A DNA stretch of 35,277 nt from Leptolyngbya sp. 'hensonii' (lineage in GTDB: Bacteria; Cyanobacteriota; Cyanobacteriia; GCF-001939115), in the NCBI RefSeq assembly GCF_001939115.1, contig NZ_MQTZ01000002.1, forward strand, positions 33,555 to 68,831, given 5' to 3'. Each line of letters starts with the position of its first letter. Position 1 is the first letter of the stretch. Below are positions 1,266 through 34,115 of the stretch, piece after piece. A program made the translations under genes and the position numbers. A model generated the notes under the pieces. The model saw only the letters and a list, made by a program, of their open reading frames with translations, was not told the DNA's origin and made no database searches.

Positions 1266-1676
1266 TTATGGCAATCGATCGGGGGCAGGTTGAATGTACA
1301 ATTCCCGGAACCCAGTCTGTTCGTCAGGCTGTCGCAGGAAAATATAGTCTGGCGTGCTACCAATGACAATTTCTGCTGTTGTGTAGATGGGGCAACCCTC
1401 CTGGAGATGCCCCCCAATGGTGGCTCCCGTTTCATCGGCCAGAGATAGGTGCAGATGCAATCCGTGGATGGAAAGGGTTCCAACCAGAGAAACAATCTCA
1501 AATTTGCCCTGGAAGACCTGGGGCTCACGTTGGTTGGCTAGCCGGAGCGTTGCCTGCCGCAGGCTACCCACAGCAGTCAGGATAAAACCAGCCTGGATCT
1601 GATGGGCCTGGGTGAACTCCCTCAGACTCTGACGCAGGTCCTGGTGAGGACCTAACCGCAGGGGCAAGACGTTCAT
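1266..1676 (-). CDS. DUF296 / PPC-domain protein
   Basis: 136 residues from ATG 1676, whose first bases overlap the TGA stop of the upstream gene (ATGA), so translation is probably coupled. The whole protein is one PPC (DUF296) domain. It has an N-terminal strand and helix, AGFILTAVGSL, a second strand-rich half, and the histidine-rich segment LHLHLSLADETGATIGGHL, where family structures place metal-binding histidines. Bacterial DUF296 proteins are compact trimers of uncertain function; in plants the same domain is attached to AT-hooks and acts in DNA-binding regulators. No AT-hook is present here. Coupling to the acidic repeat protein with an HTH-like tail suggests the two proteins work together, which is inference. 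Confidence 0.85.
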   Translation of the reverse strand: MNVLPLRLGPHQDLRQSLREFTQAHQIQAGFILTAVGSLRQATLRLANQREPQVFQGKFEIVSLVGTLSIHGLHLHLSLADETGATIGGHLQEGCPIYTTAEIVIGSTPDYIFLRQPDEQTGFRELYIQPAPDRLP

Positions 1677-3553
1677 CGGGGAACAAATCGGCCATCTGGA
1701 CGACAGATCCAGGCAATCCCATCTGGATCGAGCGAACGACTCCACTCCCCAAAGTCTTCCCGTTCTTTACGGCGACTAACCGTACTGGAATTAACCTTTA
1801 ACCTGCGGGCCAGGGTTCTACCAGAGAGGGATCCGGCATCGGCATTGTCCACCTCAGCCAGAATCTCCAAATAAGCCTGCCAGAAGATCAGGAACACCGC
1901 CATAACCAGCATCAGCAAAGACTCAGGTTTGCGTAAAACCTCACGCACACTGGAGCCTGAAGGATGTCCCGCCGTCAGGGCATTCTCTTCTGATTCTGCA
2001 TCCACAACCTGGACTTCCCGGGGAATGGCTGGAGCCTCAGGCACAGTGGCAAGAGAAGTAACAGGCTCCTGAATCTCTGGAATGGCGGCAATTTCCGCTC
2101 CAGGAGGAATGGCCATCGCCTCAGAAGCATCATCACCTGCCTGGGGGATGAGTTCCGGCTCTGCAAGCAGGTCACTCTCCCACCGATCGAGATTCAGGGC
2201 CGGTTGTTCCAGAGTTTCCGTGAAGCCATCCTCCGGAAGGATTTCTGAGCTGTCAATGCTTAGCTCAGCAGACCCCAGGAAATCGGCTAGACGATCGTCC
2301 AGGTTGAGGCTGGGGGAAGCCATCTCCGTATCCCACGAATCCGGGGCTGAGTTCGATCGCTCTGGTTCATAAACATCCAGTTCCGGCTCTTCCAGCGCAT
2401 CCATGAGGCTGTCCTCTGGACTGCACTCTGGTTCATAAACATCGAAACCGGGTTGTTCCAGGGTATCCACCAAGGCATTGGCCAGGCTGATCTCCGGCTG
2501 ATCAAAGTCCAGGCTGGGTGCTTCCAACCCCTCCTCCAGCGCATCTTCCAGGCTTAACCCCGGTTCATCAACACTCAGATCAGAGGCTTCCAGCACGTCT
2601 TCCAGGCTTAATTCTGGTTCATCAACATCCAGATCAGAGGCTTCCAGCACGTCTTCCAGGCTTAATTCTGGTTCATCAACACTCAGATCAGAGGCTTCCA
2701 GCACGTCTTCCAGGCTTAATTCTGGTTCATCAACATCCAGATCAGAGGCTTCCAGCACGTCTTCCAGGCTTAATTCTGGTTCATCAACATCCAGATCAGA
2801 GGTTTCCAATGCATTTTCCAGGCTTAATTCTGGCTGATCACAGTCCAGGCTGGGTGCTTCCAACCCCTCCTCCAGACTGAATGCCGGTTCAGCGTCAACC
2901 AAATCAGCCAGAATCTCATCTTCCGGCTGACCCCGTTGTGAGGTCTGCTCAAGAGCGATTTCCAGATCAGGGGCAGGGAGATCCTGGGGGGACTCTGCTA
3001 CCACTTCCGAGTCAAGAACATTGAGCGCGATCGGGGGATCTGCCATCAGTTCCTCTGACTCAGACAGGTTCAGATCAGCCTCCCCTGCCTCACTCCCAGG
3101 CAGTTCCTCCCCCAGGGGCAAGGTTACAGATGAATCCACAAGCGGGATCGGGTCAGACTCAACGGCTGGCTCTCCAGGATCTGTCATCAGCAGAAATTCA
3201 GCATCGTCTACCCTTTCACCCAAAGGTTCAGCCTCTACTGTGGCAGCATAATGGGCCAGTTCCTCTTGTTTCACTTCTCGATTCCAGTCAGCCACTTTCT
3301 CTCCCAGGCGTCTCCAGTAAATTCGGACCGCTTGGACAGAGAACGTATGGAGTCGGAGCAGACCCTGGGAAACCAGTGCCACCATCAGATTCTGATCCGG
3401 GGGTTGGCCAGATTCCAGCAGCACATAAAGGGCTTCTCCCTGACGGGCCACCCGGACTATTACACCATGGGCCAGGGTGGATTCGCTAATAACAGATGCG
3501 ATCGCCTGGGGGTCGCCTTGATTGGCGCGTTCCAAAACCTCCTCCAGTGACAT
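1673..3553 (-). CDS. Acidic tandem-repeat membrane protein with C-terminal HTH-like segment
   Basis: 626 residues from ATG 3553. Residues 1-90 (LEEVLERANQGDPQAIAS onward) form a small alpha/beta domain that I recognise as recurrent at the N-terminus of cyanobacterial proteins of unknown role. Residues 110-520 are very acidic and low in complexity. They include at least five near-identical 18-residue repeats (DVDEPELSLEDVLEASDL) and several diverged ones. A single hydrophobic segment near residue 550 (LLMLVMAVFLIFWQAYLEIL) could cross the membrane. The last 60 residues contain LARRLKVNSSTVSRRKERED, an HTH-like pattern, followed by DPDGIAWICRPDGRFVPR, also seen at the end of other cyanobacterial proteins. 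No signal peptide is visible, so the acidic part is probably cytoplasmic. Function unknown; scaffold or regulatory roles are both possible. The stop overlaps the start of the DUF296 gene. Confidence 0.8.
   Translation of the reverse strand: MSLEEVLERANQGDPQAIASVISESTLAHGVIVRVARQGEALYVLLESGQPPDQNLMVALVSQGLLRLHTFSVQAVRIYWRRLGEKVADWNREVKQEELAHYAATVEAEPLGERVDDAEFLLMTDPGEPAVESDPIPLVDSSVTLPLGEELPGSEAGEADLNLSESEELMADPPIALNVLDSEVVAESPQDLPAPDLEIALEQTSQRGQPEDEILADLVDAEPAFSLEEGLEAPSLDCDQPELSLENALETSDLDVDEPELSLEDVLEASDLDVDEPELSLEDVLEASDLSVDEPELSLEDVLEASDLDVDEPELSLEDVLEASDLSVDEPGLSLEDALEEGLEAPSLDFDQPEISLANALVDTLEQPGFDVYEPECSPEDSLMDALEEPELDVYEPERSNSAPDSWDTEMASPSLNLDDRLADFLGSAELSIDSSEILPEDGFTETLEQPALNLDRWESDLLAEPELIPQAGDDASEAMAIPPGAEIAAIPEIQEPVTSLATVPEAPAIPREVQVVDAESEENALTAGHPSGSSVREVLRKPESLLMLVMAVFLIFWQAYLEILAEVDNADAGSLSGRTLARRLKVNSSTVSRRKEREDFGEWSRSLDPDGIAWICRPDGRFVPR
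2548..2817 (-). repeat. Five tandem 54-base in-frame repeats
   Basis: Units begin at 2548, 2602, 2656, 2710 and 2764, each exactly 54 bases and nearly identical. They alternate DLDVDEP and DLSVDEP versions of an 18-residue acidic unit. Diverged units continue on both sides. Near identity at the DNA level indicates recent expansion or homogenisation by slippage or recombination. Confidence 0.95.
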
Positions 3554-5068: not shown

Positions 5069-5174
5069 CCCTCACCCCCAACCCCCAACCCCTCCCCCTC
5101 TCCCAGCGGGAGAGGGGGCAGGGGGGTGAGGGCAATCAGGAGTTTATCGGTGTTATTTAATTCTCATTCCTAAG
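5069..5174. repeat. Dispersed GC-rich palindromic element, copy A
   Basis: Contains a perfect 11-base-pair hairpin (arms 5094-5104 and 5108-5118, loop AGC) made of CCCCCTCTCCC and its complement, flanked by C-rich and G-rich tracts. The right end (5141-5174) is identical over 34 bases, in inverted orientation, to 15547-15580, the left end of copy B. It lies between the small membrane protein gene and tRNA-Pro, where its hairpin may also end transcription. Confidence 0.8.
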
Positions 5175-15546: not shown

Positions 15547-15863
15547 CTTAGGAATGAGAATTAAATAACACCGATAAACTTTTGCTTGCCTTCATCCCCC
15601 TGCCCCCTCTCCCGGCCTACTGTGTACCCATAATCCCCTCCTGGGAGGGGTTAAGGTGGGTTCAACGATCCTGCTCCCGTTCCTAGACCCACCCTCGGCC
15701 CTGCGGGCCACCCCTCCCAGGAGGGGATTTCACGCGAGTCTGCTGACTTGAGCCAAACTTTTCAGAGAGCTGTATACGCGGTAGCTCCCGGCGGGAGAGG
15801 AGGAGGGGTTGGGGGTGAGGGTAGTCAGGACTTTGGCACTTGATTTAACTCTCATTCCTTACG
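15547..15863. repeat. Dispersed palindromic element, copy B, split by a second element
   Basis: The outer ends are inverted copies of each other (AAGGAATGAGA(A/G)TTAAAT at 15548 onward and its complement near 15843-15861). The left arm to 15616 and the right arm from 15785 together resemble copy A at 5069-5174 in reverse orientation; 15547-15580 is identical to the complement of 5141-5174. The G/C-rich central hairpin is interrupted by the 168-base element at 15617-15784. Without the insert and one target copy the element would be about 141 bases. Its right end supplies the stop codon of the DUF3007 gene. Confidence 0.85.
15617..15784. mobile_element. Miniature inverted-repeat element, copy 1, nested
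   Basis: 168 bases beginning CTACTGTGTACCC and ending ATACGCGGTAG; the ends are imperfect inverted repeats. It is flanked by the direct repeat CTCCCGGC (15609-15616 and 15785-15792), as expected of a target-site duplication. Inside, a 19-base arm at 15632-15650 is perfectly complementary to 15711-15729, so the element can fold on itself. It has no coding capacity and would need a transposase from elsewhere. The second copy is at 33715-33881. Confidence 0.85.
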
Positions 15864-23250: not shown

Positions 23251-25023
23251 CTAAGGATTAGAGGTTTGAGATTGGGTCCCTGGTAGGATTACATCCACAA
23301 CAGGTGGAGTAATCGTGGCATTGAGATTATTTCCCAGGGGTACTTGTACATCTACCGAAACAGCAGGTTGCACCAGATCCACCACAGGGGGAGTGGGTGG
23401 GTTGACATCCGCATTGGCCCCAGGGAATTGTCCTCCCGTTGCGCCACTCCCAGGAAACTGTCCCCCTGTGGCACCCCCCCCAGGGAAAATACTGGTTCCA
23501 GGGTCAGGGGAGGGACTCACTGGAATGATCGGGCTGGGGGAGGGTCCCACTGGCAGCACAGGGGCTGGAGAAGGAGTGACTGGGAGAATTGGGCTGGGGG
23601 AAGGGTCTACCGGCAGCACAGGGGCTGGAGAAGGATTAACTGGGAGAATTGGGCTGGGGGAAGGGTCCACCGGCAGCACAGGGGCTGGAGAAGGATTAAC
23701 TGGGAGAATTGGGCTGGGGGAAGGGTCTACCGGCAGCACAGGGGCTGGAGAAGGATTAACTGGGACAATCGGGCTAGGGGAAGGGTTCACCGGCAGCACA
23801 GGAGCCGGTGAAGGACTGACCTTAGGAGGGCTGGGGTCTGGCGTCACTGGGACTCCACCACTTGATCCAGGAGAACCACTGGGAGGAGGATTATTCAAAC
23901 CGCCACTGGGGACAATGGGAACAATATCAATCGGTTTGATAGTTGATACAGTCGGAGAAGGCCCAGTCACAGGAGGTGATTGGATCTGAACTGAAATCTT
24001 GACAGGTTTCAACAAGAATTGATTCGCTGCCGTCAGTTGATCCAGAGTGAATTTGCTTCCTCCCAGCCCCCAGTTATTCGTAATATCCAGAAGGGTAGAA
24101 GCTTCCAGTACTTCAACTGTGAAATTCGGACTCAATAACCCTGGACTCGCTGCTACAGGTTGATTGGTAGGAAGTTTGAGTGCCGGTAAGTTCTCATAAA
24201 TGGGTTTATTGTTGTCCAACGGTGAGAGGTTCTGGAGGGTTTCAAGAATCTCCTGCCGGACTTGAGCCATGTCGATATCCAAATCTGTTGCATCAGGCGG
24301 TTGATTTAACTTCAACCCCTTCACAAGATCTGCCGACTGCAAAAATTCTTGCACATCATAGCGAACCACTTGAATCGTATTCCCAGACACGATCGCCATT
24401 TCCCCGCCACAAATTTCTTTCTTTTGAGATCCGTCAGATGTGGCGATTTCCATGGGCCGCCCCGGATTACAACCGATCGCACCCATAATGGTGACGAAGT
24501 TCTTACTCTCTACTCCTTCAAAGTCCTGTTCACTGGCCTGCTCTGAAGGAGTTGATCCACCATTCAAGACATAGGTGCGGATAAAAAAGGAGGAGCCTTT
24601 GATCCCAGCCGTCGCGTTCGGGGTACGCACACGGGTTGTGCCCCGGCCCGGTGGAATAAGGACCAGAACTGTTCCGTTAGACAAATGAAAGGTTCGCGTC
24701 TTGGGCACAAAGCGGAAAACTGCCTGCTCGCCAATTCTGGCTAGGGAACCATCGTTAAACCGTAACTCGGCCAGGGATGCTAGGGCTGTTGCAAGGGCAT
24801 CACCAGGAATCATCACATCTGCAATCCGGGCCGATCGACGGGCCTGATTGCGAGGGATCAGGCTCACCTGATTGCGGATACTCTGGACAGTAGCCCGGGT
24901 CAAAGGCACCGGTTGGGCGATCGCCGTGGCTGATAGCAATACGCCAGTAATTCCCAGCCCAAGAGCCGAGAGTTTGATTTTATCGCTGTTGGATAGAGAG
25001 CCTGATACCCTATGACGGAACAT
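23251..25023 (-). CDS. FecR-domain exported protein with long Pro-rich repeat tail
   Basis: 590 residues from ATG 25023 (MFRHRVSG), chosen because AGGAGTGT lies directly upstream; an in-frame ATG at 25044 is less well placed. The signal peptide ends around residue 36 (LLSATAIA, then QPVP). Residues 40-190 form a FecR domain: LRFNDGSLARIGEQAVFRF, FHLSNGTVLVLIPPG, RVRTPNATAGIKGSSFFIR. In this domain family a jelly-roll-like fold senses or transmits envelope signals. Between about 190 and 380 is an unassigned region. Residues 390-500 hold five 20-residue repeats of the form PSPAPVLPVNPSPSPILPV, then Gly-rich FPGGGATGGQ units and a final strand-rich segment. It is divergent from the beta-barrel gene at 25148, with which it probably shares a control region. 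Confidence 0.87.
   Translation of the reverse strand: MFRHRVSGSLSNSDKIKLSALGLGITGVLLSATAIAQPVPLTRATVQSIRNQVSLIPRNQARRSARIADVMIPGDALATALASLAELRFNDGSLARIGEQAVFRFVPKTRTFHLSNGTVLVLIPPGRGTTRVRTPNATAGIKGSSFFIRTYVLNGGSTPSEQASEQDFEGVESKNFVTIMGAIGCNPGRPMEIATSDGSQKKEICGGEMAIVSGNTIQVVRYDVQEFLQSADLVKGLKLNQPPDATDLDIDMAQVRQEILETLQNLSPLDNNKPIYENLPALKLPTNQPVAASPGLLSPNFTVEVLEASTLLDITNNWGLGGSKFTLDQLTAANQFLLKPVKISVQIQSPPVTGPSPTVSTIKPIDIVPIVPSGGLNNPPPSGSPGSSGGVPVTPDPSPPKVSPSPAPVLPVNPSPSPIVPVNPSPAPVLPVDPSPSPILPVNPSPAPVLPVDPSPSPILPVNPSPAPVLPVDPSPSPILPVTPSPAPVLPVGPSPSPIIPVSPSPDPGTSIFPGGGATGGQFPGSGATGGQFPGANADVNPPTPPVVDLVQPAVSVDVQVPLGNNLNATITPPVVDVILPGTQSQTSNP
23521..23820 (-). repeat. Five tandem 60-base in-frame repeats
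   Basis: Units of exactly 60 bases at 23521, 23581, 23641, 23701 and 23761 encode 20-residue Pro/Ser/Val units. The middle three are almost identical and the outer two are diverged, which suggests growth from the centre. There are no unique spacers, so it is not a CRISPR array. Confidence 0.95.
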
Positions 25024-25147
25024 ACACACTCCTGTGCAGCGCATCTAATATGGATGTAACCCTAGCACCAACAGACCACACGAGAAAAACAGGTTATCTC
25101 TTGCTAGCATTCAACTTGGAACCTTGCAACCATCCTATGGTAGATTC

Positions 25148-33703: not shown

Positions 33704-33714
33704 CCCCAGGCTGG

Positions 33715-33881
33715 CTACTGTGTACCCATAATCCCCTCCTGGGAGGGGTAGGGGTGGGTTCAACCCTTCTGCTCCCGTTCCTAGACCCACCCCGGCCCTG
33801 CAGGCCACCCCTCCCGAGAGGGGATTTCACGCGAGTCTGCTGACTTGAGCCAAGCTTTTCAGAGATCTGTATACGCGGTAG
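33715..33881. mobile_element. Miniature inverted-repeat element, copy 2
   Basis: 167 bases beginning CTACTGTGTACCC and ending ATACGCGGTAG, closely matching the copy at 15617-15784 along its length. The direct repeat CCCCAGGCTGG (11 bases) flanks it at 33704-33714 and 33882-33892. Internal arms 33730-33748 and 33808-33826 are complementary with two mismatches. It is non-coding; short frames crossing it are not genes. Confidence 0.88.
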
Positions 33882-34115
33882 CCCCAGGCTGGAGGGTGTC
33901 CACGACAAAAGTGTGGGTTTTCCCTACCGCAGTTTCCCGGAGTGATCTGGCAGGATCAGGGTGGGATGGAGAGGAGGAGCAAGAACACTTCTATTCCGCC
34001 CTATCTCCCAAAAAGCTATCTCAGAAGCGGCTGATGGTTGCAGTGTGATCATCCAGGACGCAGATTTGAGGTTGGCTTTGCTCTGAAATCTGGAGTCCTG
34101 TCGAGAGGAGCAACT

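Follow-up and report, generated by a model that had tools for sequence, protein, structure and literature searches.

The window analysed here, a stretch of 35,277 nucleotides from the cyanobacterium Leptolyngbya sp. 'hensonii', raises the question of which enzyme could have moved a short repeat that it contains twice, and of how the sites of insertion were chosen. An earlier note on this DNA had reported two copies with common ends, each between a different pair of direct repeats, had pointed out a long internal inverted repeat, and had concluded that a non-autonomous element had transposed. Both copies were found where they had been placed: they share the ends CTACTGTGTACCC...ATACGCGGTAG and are bracketed by direct repeats of 11 bp (copy A) and 8 bp (copy B), and the internal inverted repeat is borne out by a calculated DNA fold of -39.3 kcal/mol (z = -5.1 vs shuffles). 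In all likelihood, we are dealing with an IS4-family MITE of the IS50 (Tn5-like) type, which was moved in trans and pasted at palindrome axes with a stagger of 8-11 bp. The features that bear on this reading are as follows.

33715..33881, plus strand: MITE copy A, 167 bp
33704..33714, unstranded: left target-site duplication (TSD) of copy A, CCCCAGGCTGG
33882..33892, unstranded: right TSD of copy A, CCCCAGGCTGG
33715..33733, plus strand: left terminal repeat of copy A, CTACTGTGTACCCATAATC, 14/19 identical to the end of a full-length IS in another cyanobacterium (genome G076)
33863..33881, minus strand: right terminal repeat of copy A, reading inward as CTACCGCGTATACAGATCT, with 7/7 positions of the IS50-subgroup end consensus
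33730..33827, plus strand: internal long hairpin of copy A (element positions 16-113)
15617..15784, plus strand: MITE copy B, 168 bp
15609..15616, unstranded: left TSD of copy B, CTCCCGGC
15785..15792, unstranded: right TSD of copy B, CTCCCGGC
15590..15616, unstranded: left half of the palindromic repeat (CCCCCTCTCCC/GGGAGAGG) into which copy B is inserted
15785..15823, unstranded: right half of the same palindromic repeat

The search for further copies that the earlier note had called for covered the 5.94-Mb draft genome (77 contigs, 99.98% complete) and returned 47 matches, of which 11 are full length (167-168 bp). These full copies are 91-98% identical in pairwise comparison and differ from their consensus by 1-8 substitutions each, so that amplification of the MITE is probably over. 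Several copies of 92-93 bp lack the inner ~75 bp, and others are truncated; the difference between the 92-bp and 167-bp forms is bounded by 7-bp repeats (CCCCTCC), which would permit a deletion through slippage. The MITE has short, imperfect terminal inverted repeats (CTACTGTGTAC vs CTACCGCGTATAC, CTAC...GTAG), and no open reading frame spans the copies, save for a 150-aa frame at copy A that has no Pfam match. The element thus combines terminal inverted repeats and TSDs with short size, many copies and no coding capacity, as is usual for a MITE. Its internal hairpin overlaps a second repeat that is dispersed independently: the right half also stands alone as a ~43-bp half-unit in more than 20 places, some of them in tandem, and a 98-bp version of the hairpin without MITE ends is found at G000:C45:4092-4189. 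The 167-bp form is therefore a mosaic. A tandem ~40-bp half-unit was also seen outside the MITE at G000:C20:122081-122177 (L025). The same genome contains a sister element of 165 bp (C38:15681-15845) with the ends CTACTGTGTACACACAAGT and CTACCTTGTACACACAAAT.

Among 16 insertions examined, 12 have perfect TSDs (8 bp in one, 9 bp in four, 10 bp in three and 11 bp in four), two (L002 and L005) have TSDs with one mismatch each, and two have none. When the left flank of one copy was combined with the right flank of another, no duplication was seen in 235 of the 240 pairings; the exceptions probably come from flanks of one common palindromic repeat or from overlapping assembly. The table of duplication lengths and the swap control together establish transposition. 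Observations that had been expected to speak against mobility, namely a lack of direct repeats at other copies or a constant gene context, were not made: most other copies have a TSD of their own, and the gene contexts vary from copy to copy. The very stable fold and the intergenic positions might also suggest a conserved structured RNA or a transcription terminator cassette that was spread by recombination or descent. However, both the TSDs and the variable contexts contradict such an origin, only 1 of the 42 predicted pairs shows a compensatory change while many pairs are broken, and the element has no match in Rfam, which makes this explanation very improbable. In other strains, a pattern scan of the contigs of named relatives for the MITE core found none; at the orthologous site, which adjoins a 285-aa gene, no MITE is present in Pantanalinema sp. 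GBBB05 (53% identity), the closest of the named relatives, and this relative is too diverged to show an empty site.

The unequal length of the duplications had been expected to narrow the class of the enzyme, and indeed it points to the IS4 family, where 8-11 bp is within the one helix turn. The same ends also bound another 15 elements, 131-347 bp long, in other genomes, and the TSDs of these measure 9-11 bp. The duplications also bear on a quite different mechanism. A GTAG-tagged REP/BIME palindromic repeat, moved by a RAYT (an IS200/IS605-like HuH transposase) and not by a DDE enzyme, would likewise have the GTAG end, the strong hairpins and the intergenic position, and GTAG-tagged REPs have been described in cyanobacteria (PMC3733652). 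Yet the inverted CTAC/GTAG pair of ends and the TSDs of 8-11 bp contradict this mechanism, which is recognized by the absence of TSDs, and a DDE-type IS bounded by the same ends exists, so that a RAYT origin seems very improbable. HuH-type insertion is not known to yield target duplications.

Identification of a DDE enzyme of the IS50 type came from the element ends. The longer end of the sister element resembles the Tn5 outside end. In a sample of 96 genomes from the same class, this end (CTACTGTGTACACACAAGT) was searched for with up to 3 mismatches and with the reversed pattern as a control. The terminal motif CTACNGTGTACACACAAGT is present in 44 of these genomes, with up to 51 sites per genome vs 0-2 for the control; in G014 the counts were 23+28 vs 0. 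A complete IS of 1478 bp was found in G076 (L129:459-1936). It has two facing ends, both CTACCGTGTACACACAAGT, and is flanked on both sides by GACCTAGAGG, a 10-bp TSD; its interior holds one transposase frame, which an in-frame stop divides into two adjacent pieces. Both pieces match the IS4-family model NF033590 (E = 4e-59 and 1e-42), and the transposase also matches the Tn5 transposase in the PDB (8e-11) and contains the YREK motif, Y(2)R(3)E(6)K, as YRWRWRIEQLFATLK. The end consensus of the IS50 subgroup, CW------Y---CA-A--W- (PMC2266710), is matched at 7/7 positions by the G076 IS, at 6/7 by the left end of the MITE and at 7/7 by its right end, and the size of the IS is inside the 1350-1550 bp reported for the subgroup. 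An autonomous relative with ends of this type is thus present in G076; the left end of the MITE agrees with the IS end at just 14/19 positions and lacks the AAGT box. The G076 element is the sole complete IS found with CTAC-type ends and a matching TSD, and its gene carries the stop.

Could the IS50-like ends be a chance resemblance, in a MITE that belongs to another DDE family with duplications of 8-11 bp, such as ISAs1, IS1, IS256 or IS66? The absence of a helper from the genome and the divergence between the MITE ends and the IS ends found would agree with this. Against it, the 165-bp sister element has an exact 19-bp end of the IS type together with the same kind of target, locus L013 carries CTACTGTGTACACACAATC, and a target type common to the MITEs and the IS50-type ISs links the two, which makes assignment to another DDE family unlikely. 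The earlier note had found no transposase near the copies, and the matching type was not found anywhere else in the assembly either. In the 77-contig draft, NF033590 gave one weak match of 24 bits, below the cut-off. The eight PF01609 transposases of the same genome were considered as helpers and rejected, since none had a pair of MITE-type ends at the loci inspected. The proposed search for a full-length IS with the same terminal repeats found the same kind of ends on an IS in another cyanobacterium, and on none in the element's own genome. With no matching transposase there, the MITE looks orphaned; the helper IS would have been lost from the lineage, or may be hidden in assembly gaps or at a contig break. 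Orphan MITE populations seem to be common. G014, with its 51 end-motif sites, has no match to NF033590, and in four genomes (G014, G007, G022 and G023) we observed 24-51 such sites each and no NF033590 transposase above the cut-off.

The insertion sites have a feature in common. The reconstructed empty sites are palindromes, mostly of the form CTCCC-loop-GGGAG in the element's own genome and often CCTT-loop-AAGG in other genomes. Complementarity around the TSD centre peaks at offset 0, with 6.1 pairs in the own genome and 6.0 in 16 elements from other genomes, and is ~2-3 pairs at 10 bp from the centre; when window positions were resampled, 6.7 complementary pairs were observed vs 3.98 expected, and none of 20,000 means was as high. 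For 24 of the 29 sites to which a single best axis could be assigned, palindrome axis and TSD centre are no more than 1 bp apart. We also considered that the parity of TSD length might track that of the palindrome, which was unsupported (19 to 10, p = 0.14). Besides the own genome, insertions at hairpin axes were seen for other MITEs that share these ends and, elsewhere, for full-length IS50-type ISs. In G056, 12 copies of such an IS (1490-1491 bp, ends CTATCCATTAGGCAMAAGT) were read, and the targets resemble CCCTCTCCC...GGGAGAGGG palindromes; all 7 copies with intact TSDs, of 8 or 10 bp, are inserted in palindromes resembling CTCTCCC...GGGAGAGG. The other five (among L254-L265) have mismatched flanks from similar palindromic repeats with G/C runs, which suggests recombination between IS copies. 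For yet another full-length IS50-type IS, in G012, two copies were seen with TSDs of 9 and 8 bp. Survivorship could contribute to the intergenic location of the targets, insertions between genes being tolerated, but would not account for centring on the axis. In the window, copy B splits a CCCCCTCTCCCGGC/GGGAGAGG palindrome, and a related repeat stands unsplit at 5070-5174. An inverted pair of 68 nt, 93% complementary, is formed by 5107-5174 and 15547-15614 and belongs to a family of GC-rich palindromic repeats, one of which is split by copy B.

Multiple copies, TSDs, palindromic targets and matching ends on a full-length Tn5-like IS of another cyanobacterium were all observed directly, and the following mechanism is the probable one. 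A DDE transposase of the Tn5-like type, working in trans, would bind both ~19-bp ends of the MITE, excise it and insert it on or close to the axis of a palindromic hairpin (typically CTCCC...GGGAG or CCTT...AAGG); the stagger of the cut, roughly one helix turn, would give rise to TSDs of 8-11 bp, and the helper IS would then have been lost from the lineage. We infer mobilisation in trans, and also the cut-and-paste chemistry, which is taken from what is known of the IS4 family. The IS50/Tn5 subgroup (PMC2266710) resembles the present elements in its transposase family (NF033590, Tn5 homology, YREK), in its 5'-CT ends and end consensus, and in size, the cyanobacterial ISs being 1478-1490 bp long. 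It differs in that most listed members are proteobacterial, in the palindrome-axis targets seen here, and in its duplications of 8-9 bp, a range exceeded by the MITE (8-11 bp), the G076 IS (10 bp) and the related G056 IS (8-10 bp). Insertion at a symmetry axis is not new for the IS4 family: all copies of ISRm22 from Sinorhizobium meliloti were reported to lie at such an axis, in GC-rich REP palindromes (PMC1525189), and the present case extends this known behaviour. Unlike the elements described here, ISRm22 is mentioned under the IS4Sa subgroup (PMC2266710) and was reported with 6-bp direct repeats and no MITE (PMC1525189). The MITEs of Anabaena sp. 90 are mostly found between genes, with no matching IS reported in that genome (PMC3542288). 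Going by their descriptions, Nezha and other cyanobacterial MITEs are also short and non-autonomous (cited in PMC10969869; PMC3542288). No paper describing MITEs of the IS50 subgroup was found in the part of the literature searched. IS231, also of the IS4 family, has TSDs of ~10-12 bp and a target with G/C runs at both sides, GGG(N)5CCC, whereas its 5'-CAT ends have no similarity to those of the MITE.

These results name an enzyme class for a type of MITE that is spread over many cyanobacteria, though this genome seems to have lost the enzyme or never to have retained it, and give a target rule, the axis of intergenic palindromic repeats, for a family of Tn5-like transposases. Tn5, the founding member and a standard laboratory tool, has nearly random targets. 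It is quite possible, and we put it forward as a tentative proposal, that a widespread cyanobacterial branch of Tn5-like (IS50-type) transposases, specific for hairpin or palindrome axes and not for sequence and with a stagger of 8-11 bp, seeded large and now mostly orphaned MITE populations into intergenic palindromic repeats. Three other features of the window deserve mention. The cyanobacterial sRNA NsiR1 (nitrogen stress-induced RNA 1) has an Rfam match of 57.4 bits at 783-839, as a single unit in the window; tandem repeats of 54/66 nt occupy 2360-2894 within the reading frame 1673-3553, and four tandem 60-nt repeats lie at 23499-23820 within the reading frame 23251-25044.
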